From Cloacibacillus evryensis DSM 19522 (lineage in GTDB: Bacteria > Synergistota > Synergistia > Synergistales > Synergistaceae), in NCBI RefSeq assembly GCF_000585335.1, contig NZ_KK073872.1, positions 2,037,283 to 2,101,282 on the forward strand: a stretch of 64,000 nucleotides of DNA, written 5' to 3'. The position numbers and the translations under genes are program-made. Position 1 is the stretch's first letter. Each line of letters starts with the position of its first letter. Under the pieces are notes generated by a model. It was not told the origin of the DNA. It did not search any database and saw nothing but the letters and a program-made list of their open reading frames with translations. Positions 5,030 through 64,000 of the stretch are shown here, piece after piece.

Positions 5030-5059
5030 GTTGTTATGACGTGTAATCCGCTGTTTCGC

Positions 5060-6070
5060 TTACAGGAACGAGCAGGTCGACGAGGCCGCGCCGTATTTGA
5101 TGCCGCTGATCTCGTCTAGCTTCTGGACGTTGTGCACCGCGTTGATGTAGCGCAGCGTGCCGCTCTTCGCGCGCATAACGAGCGACGACGTCTCGATGCC
5201 GTCGCCTGAGTAGCGCACGCCTTTGAGCCAGTCTCCGTCTGTGACGCCCGTCGCCGCGAAGAAGACGTTTTCGCAGCTTACGAGGTCGTTGAGGTGGAGG
5301 ACTTTATTGACGTCCATACCCTTTTCTTTGCACTTCTCGCGCTCTTCGTCGTTGCGCGGCCAAAGTTTGCACTGCATGTTGCCGCCGACGCATTTGAAGG
5401 CGCAGGCGGTGATGACCGCCTCCGGCGAACCGCCGACTCCCATGAGGAGGTCGATGCCGGCATTGGGCTTGCAGGTCGAGAGGGCGCCAGCGACATCGCC
5501 GTCTGGGATGAGGCGGATACGCGCGTGGAGCGAACGTATCTCTTTGATAAGTTCCTCGTGGCGCGGCCTGTCAAGGACGACGACCGTGACGTCTTCCACC
5601 GATTTTCTCAGCGCGCGCGCGACGGCTCTGATGTTGTCGGTCGGCGTGGCGTCGATGTTGATCGCGTGTGCCGCGTAGGGGCCGGTGGCGATCTTGTTCA
5701 TATAGAAGATATGCTGCGGATCGAAGAGCGTATTCCTCTCCGCGAAGGCCACGACGCTGACGGCGTTCGGAAGTCCGAGGGCGGTGAGGCGCGTGCCGTC
5801 GATCGGGTCTACCGCTATATCAACCTGAGGTTCTGTTCCGCAGCCCAGCTTTTCGCCGTTGAAAAGCATCGGCGCTTCGTCTTTCTCGCCTTCACCAATA
5901 ACAACTACTCCGTCCATATTGACGGTATTGAGAATAAACCGCATCGCGTTGACCGCAGCTCCGTCAACGCCGTTCTTATCCCCGCGTCCCATCCAGCGGC
6001 CTGCGGCCATAGCGGCGGCTTCTGTCGCCCTTACCATCTCAAGCGCTAGATTTCTGTCTGGTGCAGACAT
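5060..6070 (-). CDS. glpX: Fructose-1,6-bisphosphatase class II
   Basis: This 336-residue GlpX hydrolyses fructose 1,6-bisphosphate to fructose 6-phosphate in gluconeogenesis, in the cytoplasm. The metal-dependent phosphatase signature is clear: [14 protein letters not shown] near residue 56, [14 protein letters not shown] near 86 (the DPIDGT motif of the Li-sensitive phosphatase superfamily), and [18 protein letters not shown] near 214. Length is normal. The start ATG has a GGAGGGG ribosome binding site. It is the last gene after purB (20-bp gap) and is followed by a strong terminator. A diverged fragment of the same gene sits at the left edge of the window. Confidence 0.95.
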
Positions 6071-55354: not shown

Positions 55355-55485
55355 AAAAATCGGCGCGAAGAAGTGCCGTAGGCTAAATAAGCCGGTCTCT
55401 GAGTACCGGAGCCGTATTCTCCATACGGCGAGGACACTCAGGGGCCGGCTTATGACGCATACGGTGCTTATTCGCGCCGATTTTT
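55355..55485 (-). other. 131-nt nested hairpin, possible ncRNA, terminator or MITE
   Basis: A perfect 15-bp outer stem (AAAAATCGGCGCGAA at 55355-55369, complement at 55471-55485) encloses a 10-bp stem (371-380 with 460-469), a 9-bp stem (387-395 with 445-453), a 6-bp stem (399-404 with 436-441) and a 7-bp apical hairpin (GCCGTAT-TCTCC-like loop-ATACGGC). All nest into one rod. On the minus strand the rod ends in T7, so it would terminate transcripts from the 56593-55502 gene pair. It is much larger than an ordinary terminator. Confidence 0.6.
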
Positions 55486-56593: not shown

Positions 56594-56940
56594 CTTTATC
56601 CGCTCCTTTTGACGCGGCGCGAAAGCCGCCGCAATATCTTCTGCAAAAGATTCTAGCGGAACGCTGATTTTTTTCGTTTGTAGGAATACTTCTATCGCGG
56701 TAGGTGGAAAGACGGAAAAGATAGCCCCTTCACGCGTCCGGTTTTACAGTCCTCTTCAAACGCGCCGGTAAGTGAAAGCCGGAAGACGACGCACACCAGC
56801 CCCATAGGTCCGGCAAAAACGCGCCGAACATACCTTCTTCGGGGCATGATTTAGAGTTCTTTCGGAAACCTTAGAAAACTATTGGAGATGAGAGAGATGC
56901 CGGCGTCGTTCGATGATGTTTTCGCGAGATATATGGCATA
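56594..56940. other. CRISPR trailer-side flank, no gene seen
   Basis: 347 bp between the membrane-protein gene start and the first recognisable CRISPR repeat. No supported open frame, RNA or repeat. The promoter of the 56593-55502 pair should lie here. Confidence 0.4.
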
Positions 56941-57076
56941 CTTTTAATCCACACGAGCGTGAGCTCGTGACTTTTTTCCCGAGCAGGGCCGCCACGATGC
57001 CGCCATTTTAATCCGCACGAGCGTGAAGCTCGCGACCATGCGCGTGTGCGGGTTATCTATGGCACAGGTATTTTAA
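56941..57076 (-). CRISPR. Degenerate trailer end of type I-C-like CRISPR array
   Basis: Two decayed repeats at 56941-56971 (one base missing in the loop region, first base changed) and 57005-57036 (two substitutions), separated by a 33-nt spacer. A second 33-nt spacer (57037-57069) is followed by the first 7 bases (ATTTTAA) of a third repeat at 57070-57076. The rest of that repeat lies at 60813-60841, on the far side of the IS. Decay at this end and the repeat orientation mark it as leader-distal. Confidence 0.9.
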
Positions 57077-57131
57077 GCCCAAACTTTTCCATCTTCTAGG
57101 TACTAGAGGAAGTTAACAGGAGCTTCTTGGT

Positions 57132-58565
57132 TTAGACCTTTAATCCCAGAAGCTCCAGAACCTTTGCGGTCTTCTTGGTGATAATGGTCGTTTTCCACTC
57201 CTTGCCCTGAAGCTGCTTACGGATTCCGGAGAGATAAAAGATACAGTCGCGAATCGAAAACTTTTGCAGCATCTCCGCATCCTTCATTCTTGAATAAAGC
57301 CTGTAAATTATCATCAGAGAAATATGGTTGATAAAAGCCCATGCCTCAAACGAAACATCCTTCTGCATATAGCTTACATCGGCCTCAAGCGTATTCTTCA
57401 ATACGTCAAACGATTCTTCAATCGCAGCCCGCTTCTTATAAAACTCATAGACATTCCTGCCGTCCGCTTCAATATTAGTGCGTATCAGCAATACCCCCAT
57501 CTTTCCAGCCCTTTCAAAAAGCCCCTCTTCGGTATAACCATCCACATGCGACGCGATCCTGCTCATGTAATCGCGCTGCTCCCGAAGCTCAAGATCCTTG
57601 TCGAGATAAGTAAACACCTTGCCCGCCGCATTACCGTCCGCGTCCTTTATTATCTCCTCGAAGAACCAGACAGGGCGGTCGTTAAACAGAAAAGTCCCCT
57701 TATAATCCCTGGCGCCTATCCTATCCTTATTGAAATACCTGCTGTTCCTGCGAAGAGGCACTATATACTTCAGACCGCACGAATCCATCATCTTGAAATT
57801 ATAATCAGAACCAAAACCCTTATCTGCGATCACCACCATATCCTTCACACCAGATTCAGCCACTGCCTCGCGAAAAGAGCTGACATCGCAGATATTTCCG
57901 GCAAACGTCCGATAATAGACGGGAGCCGCCTCAGGCTTAAGAGAAAAGGCATACATAAGATTGACCTGAGGGGAATAATCAGGCGTATGGCAATACCCCT
58001 GCTTAGCGTTCAGCATATTGTCAGAATGGGAAGGAATGCGAGTGCCGTCGAAAAGGATATACTCCGTGCCGGAAACAAAACCCTTCATAAAATCGACCAT
58101 CGCGGGACGTCTGTCGCCAAGCGCCGCAAGAAAACCGGACATAGCTTTTGAAGAAAGATCCAGCCCCGGCAGTTCCACAGAAAGAAAAGAGCGCACATAA
58201 CCTTCATGGAGGCGCTTGAACGGCTCCATAGAAACGATCCTCAGCAGCGCTAAAACGTAGATATACCTCCAGCACTCAGGAAAACGCTTCTGAAGTTCAG
58301 TGCGGATATCGCCGGACATATCAAGCAGCAGCTTAGACGCGCCGTACTCCACGTCGGGTTTAGGCTCTGCGCTCACTAAACAGCTATTTTTAGGAATCAA
58401 GCCGTTCTCAGTGATACGTCCAAGATAAGCGCCGGAGATTTTCTTGGCGCGTTTCTTTTCTTTATCGTAAACAGTAGTGCGTTCGTAAAGATAAAACCTA
58501 CCGTTTTGTTCCTTGATCTCTTTTCCCGGACCTTTGTAAGCTGCGACCCAATCAGGCATAGACAT
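57132..58565 (-). CDS. IS4/IS1634-like DDE transposase of the outer element
   Basis: 477 residues from the ATG at 58565 (MSMPDWVAAYKGPGKEI; GGAGG 8 bp upstream); a longer frame from 58643 lacks a ribosome binding site. The DDE catalytic pattern is visible as ILFDGTRIPSHSD (first Asp, near 180), DMVVIADKGFGSDYNF (second, near 245) and YKKRAAIEESFDVLKN (Glu, near 385, in the Y-R-E-K arrangement of the IS4 superfamily). The C-terminus ends near KTAKVLELLGLKV. It appears complete. Confidence 0.88.
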   Translation of the reverse strand: MSMPDWVAAYKGPGKEIKEQNGRFYLYERTTVYDKEKKRAKKISGAYLGRITENGLIPKNSCLVSAEPKPDVEYGASKLLLDMSGDIRTELQKRFPECWRYIYVLALLRIVSMEPFKRLHEGYVRSFLSVELPGLDLSSKAMSGFLAALGDRRPAMVDFMKGFVSGTEYILFDGTRIPSHSDNMLNAKQGYCHTPDYSPQVNLMYAFSLKPEAAPVYYRTFAGNICDVSSFREAVAESGVKDMVVIADKGFGSDYNFKMMDSCGLKYIVPLRRNSRYFNKDRIGARDYKGTFLFNDRPVWFFEEIIKDADGNAAGKVFTYLDKDLELREQRDYMSRIASHVDGYTEEGLFERAGKMGVLLIRTNIEADGRNVYEFYKKRAAIEESFDVLKNTLEADVSYMQKDVSFEAWAFINHISLMIIYRLYSRMKDAEMLQKFSIRDCIFYLSGIRKQLQGKEWKTTIITKKTAKVLELLGLKV

Positions 58566-58585
58566 GTCAAGACCTCCAAGATGTA

Positions 58586-58608
58586 CATAGTACCCAGTAA
58601 GTACTATG
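58586..58608. promoter_or_regulatory. Perfect hairpin upstream of the outer transposase
   Basis: CATAGTAC / GTACTATG with a 7-nt loop lies just upstream of the GGAGG. It may shield the transposase ribosome binding site when read through from outside, a common IS safeguard. This role is an inference. Confidence 0.4.
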
Positions 58609-58612
58609 ATTA

Positions 58613-58696
58613 TAATACAAAAAGAGATATTCTGCAATAGCAAACAGTAAAGAAATACGTTGCTATTGCAGAATATCTTTTATATGTGTGAAAAAG
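58613..58696 (+). repeat. 84-bp direct repeat, left copy
   Basis: Identical to 60689-60772. It starts TAATACAAAAAGAGATATTC and ends ATATGTGTGAAAAAG. It contains a perfect 19-bp inverted repeat (AGATATTCTGCAATAGCAA and complement). The pair brackets the inner IS exactly, so it is best read as its target duplication. Confidence 0.92.
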
Positions 58697-58833
58697 CGGG
58701 TCTTTGACACTTTTCATCTAAAAAACACTTAAAAAAGTCGGTAATAGGCTTATTTTTTTGTCAAATCTTCTTATGTGGATATTACGTATTGTGTCGTATT
58801 GTGTTATAATAAGCGCATATGGAGGCGATTTAT

Positions 58834-60384
58834 ATGAGGCTTATGAAGTCTGTTTCTCCGAACGCTGTTTCTCTCTATGTTATCAAATCAATTAACGTCA
58901 ACGGAAGACGTTCTACTAAGATCGTCGAAAAACTTGGTACTTATGCTCAGCTCAAGGAAAAGCTCGGCGGCGAGGATCCAGAGGAATGGGCCATACGCTA
59001 TATTGAAGAGCTGAACAAAAAGGAAAAAGAGGGCGCAGAGCCGGATGTTATCGTGAAGTATTCTCCTGCCAGGCTTATAGAGAAAGGGGAACGCCGTTCT
59101 TTCAACGGCGGATATCTCTTTTTACAGTGGATATATTATGCCCTGGGGTTGGATAGGATCTGCCAAAAGGTGGCAGACAAGCATGCGTTCTGTTTTAATT
59201 TGAATTCTATTTTATCGCGTCTGGTCTACAGCCGCATTATTTTCCCTGCCTCCAAGCTGGCTACGCTGCGTTTGTCAGAAGCTTTCCTTGAGGCCCCGGA
59301 TTTTGCGCTGCATCATCTTTACAGGGCGCTTTCTGTCCTGGCCGCGGAGTGCGATTATATCCAGTCTGCGCTGTATAAGGCAAGCGGGAGGGTGTTTGGC
59401 CGCAGTACGGGGGTGGTGTATTACGACTGTACCAATTATTATTTTGAGATCGAGCAGGAGGATGAGGAAAGGCGCTACGGCTGCAGCAAGGAGCACAGGC
59501 CTAATCCTATTGTGCAGATGGGGCTTTTTATGGATTACGAAGGTATTCCGCTTGCTTTCTGCATCAACCCGGGCAATACGAACGAGCAGGTTACTTTGCA
59601 GCCGCTTGAGCAGAAGCTGATGGATGATTTCAAGCTTTCTAAATTTGTGGTCTGCACGGACGCTGGGCTTGCTTCAGACGCCAACAGGAAGTTCAACGAC
59701 GGCGTGGACAAAGCTTTTATTACGACTCAGTCTATAAAGAAACTAAAGAAGTATCTGCGGGAGTGGGCTCTGGATACGTCCGGCTGGAGGATGAAGGGCT
59801 CTGATAAAAATAAGACTTATGACTTGTCTGTCGTTGAGAAGGAGGCGGAAAATGACGAGAAAGCGGCGGAGTCGTACGGGGATAAAATATTCTATAAAGA
59901 ACGCGGAATGAAGGAAAACAAGCTGGAACAAAATCTTATCGTCACTTATTCTCTAAAGTACAGGGAGTATCAACGAAAAGTACGCGGGCGGCAGATAGAG
60001 CGCGCCGAGAAAACGATCAAATCCGACCCGGGAAAGCTTGATAAGATCAACGCCAACGATTACAGACGTTTCATAAAGCGCGAGATGGTGGATGAGAAGG
60101 GTAATGAAACGCAGGCAAAAGAACGTTTCTCCATAGACAGCGCGCAGATAGAGAAAGAGGCGGCTTATGACGGTTTCTACGCCGTGTGCACCAACCTTGG
60201 CGACGACGCGGAGACAGTGGCGGGCATATCGCACGGACGTTGGGAGATCGAAGAGTGCTTCCGTATAATGAAGAGCGAATTTAAAGCGCGGCCGGTGTTT
60301 CTTCGCCGCGAGGAACGGATAAAAGCGCACTTCCTTACTTGTTTTATTTCACTGCTCATATACAGGCTGCTTGAAAAAAGCTGA
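58834..60384 (+). CDS. IS1634-family transposase, C-terminus frameshifted
   Basis: 516 residues from the ATG at 58834 (MRLMKSVSPNAVSLYVIKSI; GGAGG 8 bp upstream). The N-terminus with a repeated-strand SINVNGRRSTKIVEKLGTY is typical of IS1634 transposases. Catalytic segments are VVYYDCTNYYFEIEQED (near 195), FVVCTDAGLASDANRKF (near 275) and HGRWEIEECFRIMKSEF (near 470). The frame stops at LLEKS-TGA (60384). The -1 frame from the A6 run carries on with KLNYKYTSTEIIQELRDMNF and ends with TAG at 60587, which looks like the true C-terminal ~65 residues. One lost A would explain it. Confidence 0.85.
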   Translation: MRLMKSVSPNAVSLYVIKSINVNGRRSTKIVEKLGTYAQLKEKLGGEDPEEWAIRYIEELNKKEKEGAEPDVIVKYSPARLIEKGERRSFNGGYLFLQWIYYALGLDRICQKVADKHAFCFNLNSILSRLVYSRIIFPASKLATLRLSEAFLEAPDFALHHLYRALSVLAAECDYIQSALYKASGRVFGRSTGVVYYDCTNYYFEIEQEDEERRYGCSKEHRPNPIVQMGLFMDYEGIPLAFCINPGNTNEQVTLQPLEQKLMDDFKLSKFVVCTDAGLASDANRKFNDGVDKAFITTQSIKKLKKYLREWALDTSGWRMKGSDKNKTYDLSVVEKEAENDEKAAESYGDKIFYKERGMKENKLEQNLIVTYSLKYREYQRKVRGRQIERAEKTIKSDPGKLDKINANDYRRFIKREMVDEKGNETQAKERFSIDSAQIEKEAAYDGFYAVCTNLGDDAETVAGISHGRWEIEECFRIMKSEFKARPVFLRREERIKAHFLTCFISLLIYRLLEKS

Positions 60385-60587
60385 ACTATAAATATACCAG
60401 CACGGAAATAATCCAAGAACTGCGCGACATGAACTTTCGCGAGGAAAAAGGCAATGGGTTTGTCCCTTCTTACACAAGGACAGATCTAACAGACGCCCTG
60501 CATGAAGAGTTTGGCTTCAGAACGGACTATCAGATTGTAAGCCAAAAGAAAATCAAAGAAATCTTCAAACAGACGAAATCCTGTTAG
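60385..60587 (+). pseudogene. Frameshifted C-terminal extension of the IS1634-family transposase
   Basis: The -1 frame continues the transposase through NYKYTSTEIIQELRDMNF, VPSYTRTDLTDALHEEFGF and KKIKEIFKQTKSC to a TAG at 60587. This is a plausible domain end for the family. The shift occurs at CTTGAAAAAAGCTGA (60369-60384 area). Confidence 0.7.
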
Positions 60588-60628
60588 ACATTACTCACTT
60601 TTCGGCAAAAAGTAAAGAGCTCTTTAAT

Positions 60629-60661
60629 TCAGTTATACCATGGGTTAAGAGCTCTTTTTAT
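60629..60661 (+). terminator. Probable terminator of the inner transposase
   Basis: AAAGAGCTCTTTAA (about 60614-60627) and TTAAGAGCTCTTTTTA (about 60646-60661) form a hairpin with a T-run after the second arm, between the transposase end and the right inverted repeat. Confidence 0.5.
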
Positions 60662-60688
60662 TGTTGAAAAGTGTCAAAGACGGGATTT

Positions 60689-60772
60689 TAATACAAAAAG
60701 AGATATTCTGCAATAGCAAACAGTAAAGAAATACGTTGCTATTGCAGAATATCTTTTATATGTGTGAAAAAG
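60689..60772 (+). repeat. 84-bp direct repeat, right copy
   Basis: Exact copy of 58613-58696 on the other side of the inner IS. Beyond it the DNA (TTACGCTCGGATGGTCCC) is the remaining right end of the outer element. Confidence 0.92.
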
Positions 60773-60812
60773 TTACGCTCGGATGGTCCCTAGACTATGG
60801 AAAAGTTTGAGA

Positions 60813-61022
60813 TTAATCCACACGAGCGTGAAGCTCGTGACCGACTTCCCCCTACAGCCGGACGCCGTCAGCGGGATTTTAATCCACACGAGCGTGAAGC
60901 TCGTGACCCTCCGCTTCGCACTCCTTCGTGTCAAAAGTCCAATTTTAATCCACACGAGCGTGAAGCTCGTGACGGCCTGTGTAGTCGATGTGTATTACGC
61001 TTGCCGGATTTTAATCCACACG
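60813..61022 (-). CRISPR. CRISPR array, first block inside the IS
   Basis: The remainder of the IS-split repeat (60813-60841, TTAATCCACACG onward), two complete 32-bp repeats (60876-60907, 60942-60973) and the first 15 bases of another (61008-61022), with three 34-nt spacers. Orientation is the same as the main block. The repeat is of the type I-C kind: on the minus strand it begins GTCACGAGCTTCACGC and ends TCGTGTGGATTAAAAT. Confidence 0.95.
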
Positions 61023-61035
61023 TGTGGATTAAAAT
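61008..61035. repeat. 28-bp perfect palindrome at the inversion junction
   Basis: The first 15 bases of a minus-oriented repeat (ATTTTAATCCACACG) merge, sharing CG, with the last 15 bases of a plus-oriented repeat (CGTGTGGATTAAAAT). The result is perfectly self-complementary. Confidence 0.95.
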
Positions 61036-61424
61036 GAAATGCAACATGCAAAGCGGCTCCGGCATTTTGTCACGAGCTTCACGCTCGTGTGGATTAAAAT
61101 TTTTATATACTGTACAATCGCACGATTGATAACATCGTCACGAGCTTCACGCTCGTGTGGATTAAAATATTTGCAAGGTTTGTATACGTGGTGTAACGAC
61201 CTTGTCACGAGCTTCACGCTCGTGTGGATTAAAATTACGGTTTGGGCCCCGGGAGGCAACGGCGTGGATAAGTCACGAGCTTCACGCTCGTGTGGATTAA
61301 AATCGTGGGAGTTCTGCAACTCACAGCCGCATGAGTTGTCACGAGCTTCACGCTCGTGTGGATTAAAATAGAGAAGGAACCGAAGAACAAGTTGGAGAGA
61401 TCGCGTCACGAGCTTCACGCTCGT
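61023..61424 (+). CRISPR. Inverted CRISPR block with six spacers
   Basis: Five complete repeats (61069-61100, 61137-61168, 61204-61235, 61272-61303, 61338-61369), a half repeat at the left junction and a 20-base partial repeat at 61405-61424 all run in the opposite orientation to the rest of the array. The six spacers are 33-36 nt, like those elsewhere. The repeat sequence is unchanged, so the inversion is recent relative to repeat decay. Minus-strand transcripts from the leader would read this block antisense. Confidence 0.95.
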
Positions 61425-61445
61425 TCGGATGGAAAGCAAGCTAGA
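61425..61445. other. 21-nt scar at the right inversion junction
   Basis: Between the truncated plus-oriented repeat and the next normal repeat lie only 21 nt (starting TCGGATGGAAAG). A full repeat end of 12 nt and a normal 33-36 nt spacer would be expected. Part of a repeat and probably part of a spacer were lost when the inversion formed. Confidence 0.8.
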
Positions 61446-64000
61446 ATTTTAATCCACACGAGCGTGAAGCTCGTGACTATTCCGCGACGCCGGCATCAGC
61501 GCGACACACATCATTTTAATCCACACGAGCGTGAAGCTCGTGACCTTCCTCCTTCACATCAATTTTTAAGCGCTGATAATTTTAATCCACACGAGCGTGA
61601 AGCTCGTGACTGTAACAAATGTTTGGCGTGCGGTAAGTCTTGGATTTTAATCCACACGAGCGTGAAGCTCGTGACTCAAGGCGCTGAACCGCTTCGGTGA
61701 TTCCGAGCTATTTTAATCCACACGAGCGTGAAGCTCGTGACTTTATCCGGATTTCGACGAGGATGAAAAGCTGTCGATTTTAATCCACACGAGCGTGAAG
61801 CTCGTGACGATTCCGGTGCGCCGCTGCGACGCGATCAGCAAATTTTAATCCACACGAGCGTGAAGCTCGTGACAAATTTTACCTTTATGGAGCGGATCAG
61901 TTGCCGCATTTTAATCCACACGAGCGTGAAGCTCGTGACTCTTCCTGATCTTTTGACTTGTCGGGATCTTCGATTTTAATCCACACGAGCGTGAAGCTCG
62001 TGACTTGAACAGGCCGGTGCGGCGGCAAACACGGCAAAATTTTAATCCACACGAGCGTGAAGCTCGTGACTGCAGGAGCGGATCGTTATCTCGTGTGTAA
62101 CGATAATTTTAATCCACACGAGCGTGAAGCTCGTGACGCGGGCGCGTTGGTGACATCATTATGCGTATTACGATTTTAATCCACACGAGCGTGAAGCTCG
62201 TGACGAGACGCGCGGTGTTGTCTCAATCTAAGGAGGCGTTATTTTAATCCACACGAGCGTGAAGCTCGTGACCCTCACGACGGGCGGGAAACGTCGGGCT
62301 CGCGCCCATTTTAATCCACACGAGCGTGAAGCTCGTGACTTTCGACGATTATCGGCTATGGCCGTTTTTGATGATTTTAATCCACACGAGCGTGAAGCTC
62401 GTGACGCGAGAGCGTCAGGCCGAGACGGGCCGAAAGGTGAATTTTAATCCACACGAGCGTGAAGCTCGTGACTAAGAGTAATATCGCATTAAAAGCAACA
62501 CTTGCAATTTTAATCCACACGAGCGTGAAGCTCGTGACGCAAACCTAAGCCCAAAGAGCCGGCAGATGATCGATTTTAATCCACACGAGCGTGAAGCTCG
62601 TGACAAGTTTATCGCCACGACCGAAACGGATATCACAGTATTTTAATCCACACGAGCGTGAAGCTCGTGACACAGAGAGCTCCGCCGTCATTGCCTTTGC
62701 CAGCTTATTTTAATCCACACGAGCGTGAAGCTCGTGACCAGTCCGCTCAGTTCAACTTTATGCTGCGGCTCATTTTAATCCACACGAGCGTGAAGCTCGT
62801 GACCAAATTCGTCCCAGTCCTGGAAGACGACGGAAAATATTTTAATCCACACGAGCGTGAAGCTCGTGACGCGGTGCTGCTGGAGAGGTCAAGCCCACCG
62901 TAGCAATTTTAATCCACACGAGCGTGAAGCTCGTGACGCCCTTGAAGAATGTTTTCCGTTCGCTAATATCATTTTAATCCACACGAGCGTGAAGCTCGTG
63001 ACTACGCCGCTACAAATAATGCTACAATGGTTATAGATTTTAATCCACACGAGCGTGAAGCTCGTGACGGTTCTTTTGGCGGCGTGGCCGACTCGCCCGA
63101 TGCATTTTAATCCACACGAGCGTGAAGCTCGTGACGTACCCTTCAAGGCTGTCGTCGTAGGTCGGCCTATTTTAATCCACACGAGCGTGAAGCTCGTGAC
63201 ATCGCGCGCTCTACGTAGCCGTCTGCAAAGACAACATTTTAATCCACACGAGCGTGAAGCTCGTGACTTTTATTTTCTGTGGAGATGAAAACCTTAATCT
63301 ATTTTAATCCACACGAGCGTGAAGCTCGTGACCTCCGCACAACGGCGAACCGCGCGCCGTTAGACGGAATTTTAATCCACACGAGCGTGAAGCTCGTGAC
63401 TCATTCTTTTGCACAAAGAGGCCGGTGGTCACGCAATTTTAATCCACACGAGCGTGAAGCTCGTGACATCTCATTCATCTCACCAGTATTATCATTGTTC
63501 GGATTTTAATCCACACGAGCGTGAAGCTCGTGACCTTTTGAGTCAGACAGTTACAGCGGCAATGATTTATTTTAATCCACACGAGCGTGAAGCTCGTGAC
63601 GCGTTGACCGCTTTCATACGGTTTTCGGCCTGATCATTTTAATCCACACGAGCGTGAAGCTCGTGACGAGGGTGTCGGCTTTTGTTACTGCGCCGGGGTG
63701 ATTTTAATCCACACGAGCGTGAAGCTCGTGACGCCGCGAAGGGCGTTTCGACGCTTACTGCTTCGCCGATTTTAATCCACACGAGCGTGAAGCTCGTGAC
63801 GTGCGCGGCTGGGCGGCGCGGCGGTCTTTCGTTAAATTTTAATCCACACGAGCGTGAAGCTCGTGACCCGATCACCGTAGCAGGTATTCAGAGCATACGC
63901 ATTTTAATCCACACGAGCGTGAAGCTCGTGACGTTTTCGTACTTGCGGAGAGCGTGGGAATTAAGCATATTTTAATCCACACGAGCGTGAAGCTCGTGAC
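61446..64000 (-). CRISPR. Main CRISPR array block, 39 repeats, continues past window
   Basis: 39 complete 32-bp repeats with 38 spacers of 33-36 nt (repeat starts at 61446, 61513, 61579, 61644 and so on to 63969). On the plus strand each repeat starts ATTTTAATCCACACGAGC and ends GTGAAGCTCGTGAC, and I see no variants. The stem CACGAGC/GCTCGTG and the 3' handle GTGGATTAAAAT on the minus strand match type I-C repeats. The last repeat ends exactly at 64000, so more array, the leader and perhaps the cas genes lie to the right. Short open frames through the array are artefacts of the repeat. Confidence 0.98.

Follow-up and report, generated by a model that had tools for sequence, protein, structure and literature searches.

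In the genome of Cloacibacillus evryensis DSM 19522, an insertion sequence (IS) of the IS1634 family sits inside a repeat of a long CRISPR array, and a second element of the same family is nested within the first. Very probably, the first IS entered a TTTAAT site in the third-oldest repeat and was later entered by the second, presumably leaving the leader-side array functional and the old spacers cut off or disabled. The stretch analysed here comprises 64,000 nt (the window; C1:2037283-2101282) of a genome that consists of one contig of 3,488,464 bases; positions without the prefix C1 are those of the window.

A repeat at the old end of a CRISPR array is split by an IS

The array spans about 13.8 kb (approximately C1:2094222 to 2107992) and is still running where the window stops. 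Perfect 32-nt repeats number 147, of which the minus strand carries 142 and the plus strand 5. Two further repeats, including the split one, have two mismatches each, and the repeat at the left end is degenerate, which gives a total of about 150. Among 144 regularly spaced spacers, 27 are 33 nt long, 54 are 34 nt and 52 are 35 nt. The longest spacer of all, at C1:2101618-2101668, measures 51 nt and has an internal duplication of about 17 nt.

To the right of the array, a profile scan identified minus-strand frames matching Cas1c, Cas4, Cas3, Csd2 and Cas5c. Cas1c scored 492 bits on TIGR03640 (cut-off 385); TIGR02589 (111 bits, cut-off 182) and TIGR01876 (63.5 bits, cut-off 85) were top matches, yet under their cut-offs. 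A putative Cas8 frame was also seen. With Cas1c, Csd2 (Cas7), a Cas5c replacing Cas6 and 32-nt repeats all present, the array is, judged by its sequence, a type I-C CRISPR-Cas system. Since the cas genes and the leader lie at the far right end, the array is read leftwards, with its oldest spacers at low window coordinates. The degenerate repeats are located at the array end near the insert, opposite the leader. The old end and the split repeat are made up as follows:

56940-56971, minus strand: oldest CRISPR repeat (trailer end), degenerate; near consensus, with changes and one base missing
56972-57004, minus strand: oldest spacer, 33 nt, with a near-intact upstream repeat
57005-57036, minus strand: CRISPR repeat with 2 mismatches
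57037-57069, minus strand: second-oldest spacer, 33 nt; the hairpin side of its upstream repeat is lost to the IS
57070-57077, minus strand: trailer-side remnant of the split repeat, ATTTTAA plus the IS-adjacent G
60813-60841, minus strand: leader-side remnant of the split repeat, with an intact hairpin and processing site
60842-64000, minus strand: leader-side CRISPR array, extending about 6.7 kb past the window to about C1:2107992

The first-pass annotation had proposed that ATTTTAA at 57070-57076 and the sequence starting at 60813 are two parts of one repeat, and this proved correct. TTAA ends the left part (57073-57076) and starts the right part (60813-60816), and joining the sequence up to 57072 to that from 60813 gives ATTTTAATCCACACGAGCGTGAAGCTCGTGAC. 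Deleting the insert and one TTAA in silico thus restored a perfect 32-nt repeat, identical to the 147 perfect ones. A chance placement of ATTTTAA was dismissed because the motif occurs only four times on the plus strand of the first 56.9 kb, stands one spacer length past a repeat and completes a truncated repeat 3.7 kb away. The matching inverted ends of the insert were likewise found, CCCAAACTTTTCCAT on the left and CTCAAACTTTTCCAT on the right, both read inward. That an IS interrupts a CRISPR repeat and has separated the oldest spacers agrees with the position of the type I-C cas genes and the leader at the far right, and two old spacers are indeed displaced by 3.7 kb from the remaining array. 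The spacer preceding the insert was said to have the array-standard length of 33 nt; the length holds and falls within the range of the array, but it is not the standard, as 34 and 35 nt are commoner. Overlooked at that stage were that the insert consists of two elements and that the cut lies within the 5' handle of the crRNA. The sister species (G013) provided no empty allele for comparison: its array is shorter, has a different, 33-nt repeat and is located elsewhere in the genome.

The insert consists of two nested IS1634-family elements

The insert is an outer element of 1.66 kb that is interrupted by a second one:

57078-60811, no strand assigned: outer IS1634-family element with terminal inverted repeats; 1,658 bp without the nested element, with a second copy of the same length
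57132-58565, minus strand: outer transposase, 477 aa, DDE, frame intact; matches NF033559 and PF01609
58609-58696, no strand assigned: left copy of the 88-bp duplication made by the nested IS; holds the stable hairpin of the outer IS
58697-60684, plus strand: nested (inner) IS1634-family element, 1,988 bp, inverted ends CGGGTCTTTGACACTTTTCA / TGAAAAGTGTCAAAGACGGG; second copy at C1:1739805-1744074
58834-60384, plus strand: inner transposase; NF033559 359 bits, above the family cut-off
60685-60772, no strand assigned: right copy of the 88-bp target duplication, 1 mismatch

The outer transposase scored 130.2 bits against NF033559, the model of the IS1634 family (curated cut-off 100), and thus belongs to this family. 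For the IS1634 family, a length of 1,500-2,000 bp and a terminal C are given (PMC2266710); the outer element is 1,658 bp long with ends CCC.../CTC... and has duplications in the family range of 5-6 bp, perfect over 6 bp in its second copy and in the CRISPR copy itself identical in the core only (TTTAAG/ATTAAT). This second copy, the only other one in the genome (C1:1360263-1361792), is un-nested and shows 24 differences in 1,658 bp. It lies directly downstream of a gene that, from its reading frame, we take to be galU-like. Close relatives of the outer IS were found neither in a scan of plasmids nor in a single-protein scan of genome contigs; an alignment-based scan of genome contigs yielded 53 loci with related transposases. 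The outer IS also carries a very stable hairpin beside its transposase gene (RNA fold z about -9.8), and exactly this stretch was duplicated by the nested IS.

IS1634 and IS1549 are reported to produce long and variable target duplications of 8-514 bp (PMC2266710, PMC8024623), for which, according to PMC2266710, there was no mechanistic model at that time. The inner element behaves in the same way: its two copies have the same ends and are flanked by repeats of 88 bp (1 mismatch) and 42 bp. A cruciform origin of these long duplications was considered and rejected, as the 88-bp stretch folds (DNA -19.4 kcal/mol, z -8.0) but the 42-bp stretch does not (z 0.31). Further copies of the inner element that might decide on this idea were not found in the phylum, where relatives occur in 3 of 185 genomes, this one included. 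The second inner copy is itself interrupted by a 2.27-kb element flanked by GACATTAC, the gene set of which we take, from its proteins, to be IS66-like. The inner transposase has a shortened C-terminus, owing to a one-base difference from the other copy in an A run near 60374. Both copies of this gene differ by one homopolymer base, in the A run here and in a G run in the other copy, each of which shortens the frame; these differences result from decay of the gene or from sequencing errors.

A probable 6-bp target duplication with a TTAA-like core for the outer element

Within the split repeat, the outer element is flanked by the following two sequences:

57072-57077, no strand assigned: TTTAAG, left copy of the 6-bp target duplication, with the TTAA core at 57073-57076
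60812-60817, no strand assigned: ATTAAT, right copy of the 6-bp target duplication, with the TTAA core at 60813-60816

The first-pass annotation had read this as a duplication of TTAA. The core is identical on both sides as claimed, but the length of 4 bp had to be corrected: since the other genomic copy is flanked on both sides by a perfect 6-bp duplication, TTTAAT, we read the duplication of the CRISPR copy as 6 bp as well, with only the TTAA core still identical. In its ends and its TTAA-containing target, this other copy otherwise agrees with the proposed placement. In print, duplications of IS1634-family elements are given as 5-6 bp (PMC2266710), and that of ISGka5 as 6 bp (PMC8024623).

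We further examined the flanks of 33 loci, 31 picked from the 53 related ones plus L020 and L021, on the basis of their inverted ends alone; 16 of these 33 top picks had family-type ends as judged by eye. Ten of the 16 relatives were flanked by perfect 6-bp duplications and two (L052, L075) by perfect 7-bp duplications, three (L035, L040, L042) showed mismatches at outer positions only, and one (L064) had no match. The remaining 17 loci had no usable end or required a shift of the end, after which L021, L043 and L053 match at 6 bp. Among the ten perfect relatives and the other genomic copy, the outer bases of the duplication vary from insertion to insertion. The target rule of the outer element is therefore best read as a 6-bp duplication with a TTAA-like core. 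That the duplication truly comprises 4 bp, with the outermost G and A belonging to this copy of the IS, appears unlikely to us. Only TTAA is identical on both flanks here, and L035, L040 and L042 likewise agree in the core and differ at one or both outer positions; however, a 4-bp rule with fixed bases would yield neither the TTTAAT of the other copy nor perfect 6-bp duplications with variable outer bases in ten of 16 relatives.

If the duplication is 6 bp long, the CRISPR copy deviates from its original target, which is known letter for letter as TTTAAT from the 147 sister repeats. The changed bases are exactly those touching the element, T to G at position 6 on the left and T to A at position 1 on the right. 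We tentatively consider, as a possible though not the favoured explanation, that the joining step of this IS lineage involves a cut one base outside the element, which would leave a donor base at each 5' end that is sometimes sealed in rather than trimmed. The outer-position-only mismatches in three of the four mismatched relatives fit this reading, an argument that leaves out an earlier scan in which a matching core had been demanded. Two ordinary mutations would also give the TTTAAG/ATTAAT pattern.

The statement that the repeats offer dozens of equivalent targets was right in substance: the 13.8-kb array span contains 182 TTAA and 158 TTTAAT sites. Another 107.6 kb of the genome hold 219 TTAA and 43 TTTAAT sites, which extrapolates to about 7,100 and 1,400 genome-wide, so that about one tenth of the TTTAAT sites fall in the 0.4% of the genome taken up by the array. 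This abundance, together with the location of both genomic outer copies at TTTAAT, might suggest that the repeats are a preferred landing zone and that CRISPR arrays serve as sinks for elements with TTAA targets, which we nevertheless regard as improbable. Only one of about 150 repeats was hit, with just two copies in the genome, and we thus see no sign of a hot spot. As the array holds about 10% of the TTTAAT sites, a hit there by one of two copies has a chance of about 1 in 5, and no preference beyond the target sequence is needed. In addition, a crude repeat test flagged only one of 64 loci, some of which represent the same genome again, besides the locus studied here (L085), and at the flagged locus the IS abuts the array without a target duplication.

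The insertion lies within the predicted 5' handle of the crRNA

In type I-C crRNAs, the repeat contributes 11 nt as the 5' handle and 21 nt as the 3' handle (PMC5965380). The minus-strand repeat reads GTCACGAGCTTCACGCTCGTG/TGGATTAAAAT, and the IS is located within its last 11 bases, that is, within those that Cas5 of a type I-C system would leave as the 5' handle. According to its predicted fold, the leader-side remnant of the repeat retains the hairpin. With a complete hairpin and processing site, the leader-side array is expected to work normally, including its last crRNA. Before the spacer at 57037-57069, only the last seven bases of the repeat remain; as the upstream hairpin and processing site are missing, a proper crRNA is not expected from this spacer. 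The oldest spacer (56972-57004) is preceded by a near-intact repeat and could be processed if transcribed, but reaching it from the leader would require a transcript through 3.7 kb of IS. As the outer transposase gene has the same direction as the array, read-through into the two old spacers is possible. A consensus scan for promoters and terminators gave no excess over shuffled sequences (6 versus 5.8, and 6 versus 4.8). We infer a loss of crRNAs, and that the insertion was tolerated because only the oldest spacers are affected.

For neither of the two spacers, 56972-57004 and 57037-57069, was an exact match for 24 of its bases found in viral_contigs. When 149 spacers were compared with about 135 kb of the own genome and the sister species, both IS included, the search for self-targeting returned matches of 14-15 nt only.

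Further rearrangements at the old end of the array

Three repeats past the IS insertion, a part of the array is inverted:

61008-61445, plus strand: inverted block of the same array with six reversed spacers and 5 perfect reversed repeats (core 61021-61424)

Its left junction (61008-61035) is a perfect 28-nt palindrome formed by two half repeats, while the right junction (61405-61445) is damaged and lacks portions of a repeat and of a spacer. In a survey of human gut arrays, spacer inversions are described as virtually absent, at <0.01% of array pairs (PMC11307328), and the inverted block is therefore probably rarer than the IS insertion. Among the papers listed in our literature search on inversions within CRISPR arrays, we saw no report of one.

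The trailer border of the array (56600-56940; also L031 at about 5038-6050, L027 and L028) is a breakpoint of a rearrangement of about 0.85 Mb relative to the sister species. In that species, by our naming of the reading frames, pilin and pilC come after the pilus genes, and a LysR-type gene comes after the array. In the present genome, the presumed pilus genes lie next to the array, and those for pilC and pilin lie 0.85 Mb away, next to the LysR-type gene. Both breakpoints contain a related intergenic stretch of about 80 nt.

At 55355-55485, the window also contains a palindromic element with 63-nt arms that are 78% complementary. The query stretch holding it gave dozens of partial matches across the sister genome, and the element is probably a dispersed MITE-like or REP-like repeat.

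Order of events

We propose that an IS1634-family element entered the TTTAAT of the third-oldest repeat of an otherwise intact type I-C array, which would have duplicated 6 bp, and that a second IS1634-family element then entered the non-coding side of the first, duplicating 88 bp. Alternatively, the second IS might already have resided in the first, so that a preformed 3.7-kb unit entered the repeat in a single transposition. The outer ends are intact around the nest, and such a unit might have retained its mobility; the one other outer copy, however, is un-nested, and the order of events has left no mark in the present sequence. This alternative is conceivable, yet we hold it to be clearly the less probable course. 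An assembly artefact would be most improbable. The array and both IS are repetitive, and the same stretch contains the long inverted block and the single-base homopolymer differences, but the whole genome is assembled in one contig, unique spacers lie on either side, and the target duplications are coherent at both levels of nesting. Two successive insertions are our preferred reading.

Comparison with known systems

IS insertion into a CRISPR repeat is a known phenomenon, of which the present case is a new and clean example with a second element nested. Insertions of IS6110 in the direct repeats of the DR (CRISPR) locus of Mycobacterium tuberculosis have long been described (PMC4880099, PMC3439451). 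As in these reports, the IS within the repeat separates or hides the adjacent spacers; in contrast, it belongs to another family, and insertion at the DR locus is described as preferential, with 10 inferred in one strain, whereas here one in about 150 repeats was hit. Archaeal CRISPR loci carry insertions of IS, MITEs and plasmids (ISH4, a 132-bp MITE, ISC1359; PMC4390879), comparable rare cases of mobile elements in an array. Unlike ISC1359, which is reported to have struck a spacer under selection, the present IS lies in a repeat at the old end, with no selection evident. For cas genes, a survey listed 28 natural insertions of IS (Nat Commun 2023, PMC10359306), again with IS insertion as a route of CRISPR-Cas damage; there the whole system was inactivated, whereas here the cas genes and nearly all spacers are untouched. 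With the IS1634-family members IS1634, IS1549 and ISGka5, as published, the present elements share the transposase family, the terminal C, the 5-6 bp duplication (outer element) and the long variable duplications (inner element). They differ in that both duplication behaviours occur in one nested pair, with 130 bits for the outer and 359 bits for the inner transposase on the family model.

At a locus from the Bacillota (L078, 1-1854 and 1855-4217), a distant IS1634-family element lies directly against a CRISPR array of 27 repeats, at its trailer end. This element is itself interrupted by another transposase gene, and its flanks are mismatched, as would be seen after deletion of the remaining array.

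Implications

If donor bases are indeed sealed in at the joining step, CRISPR repeats would be a natural reporter of transposon joining errors, with a known target. For the array itself, it can be predicted from the position of the cut within the 5' handle which one spacer should be disabled. Visible damage is concentrated in the trailer-most dozen of about 150 repeats, which include the degenerate repeats, the IS and the inverted block, and the old end of a very long array is where loss should cost least.
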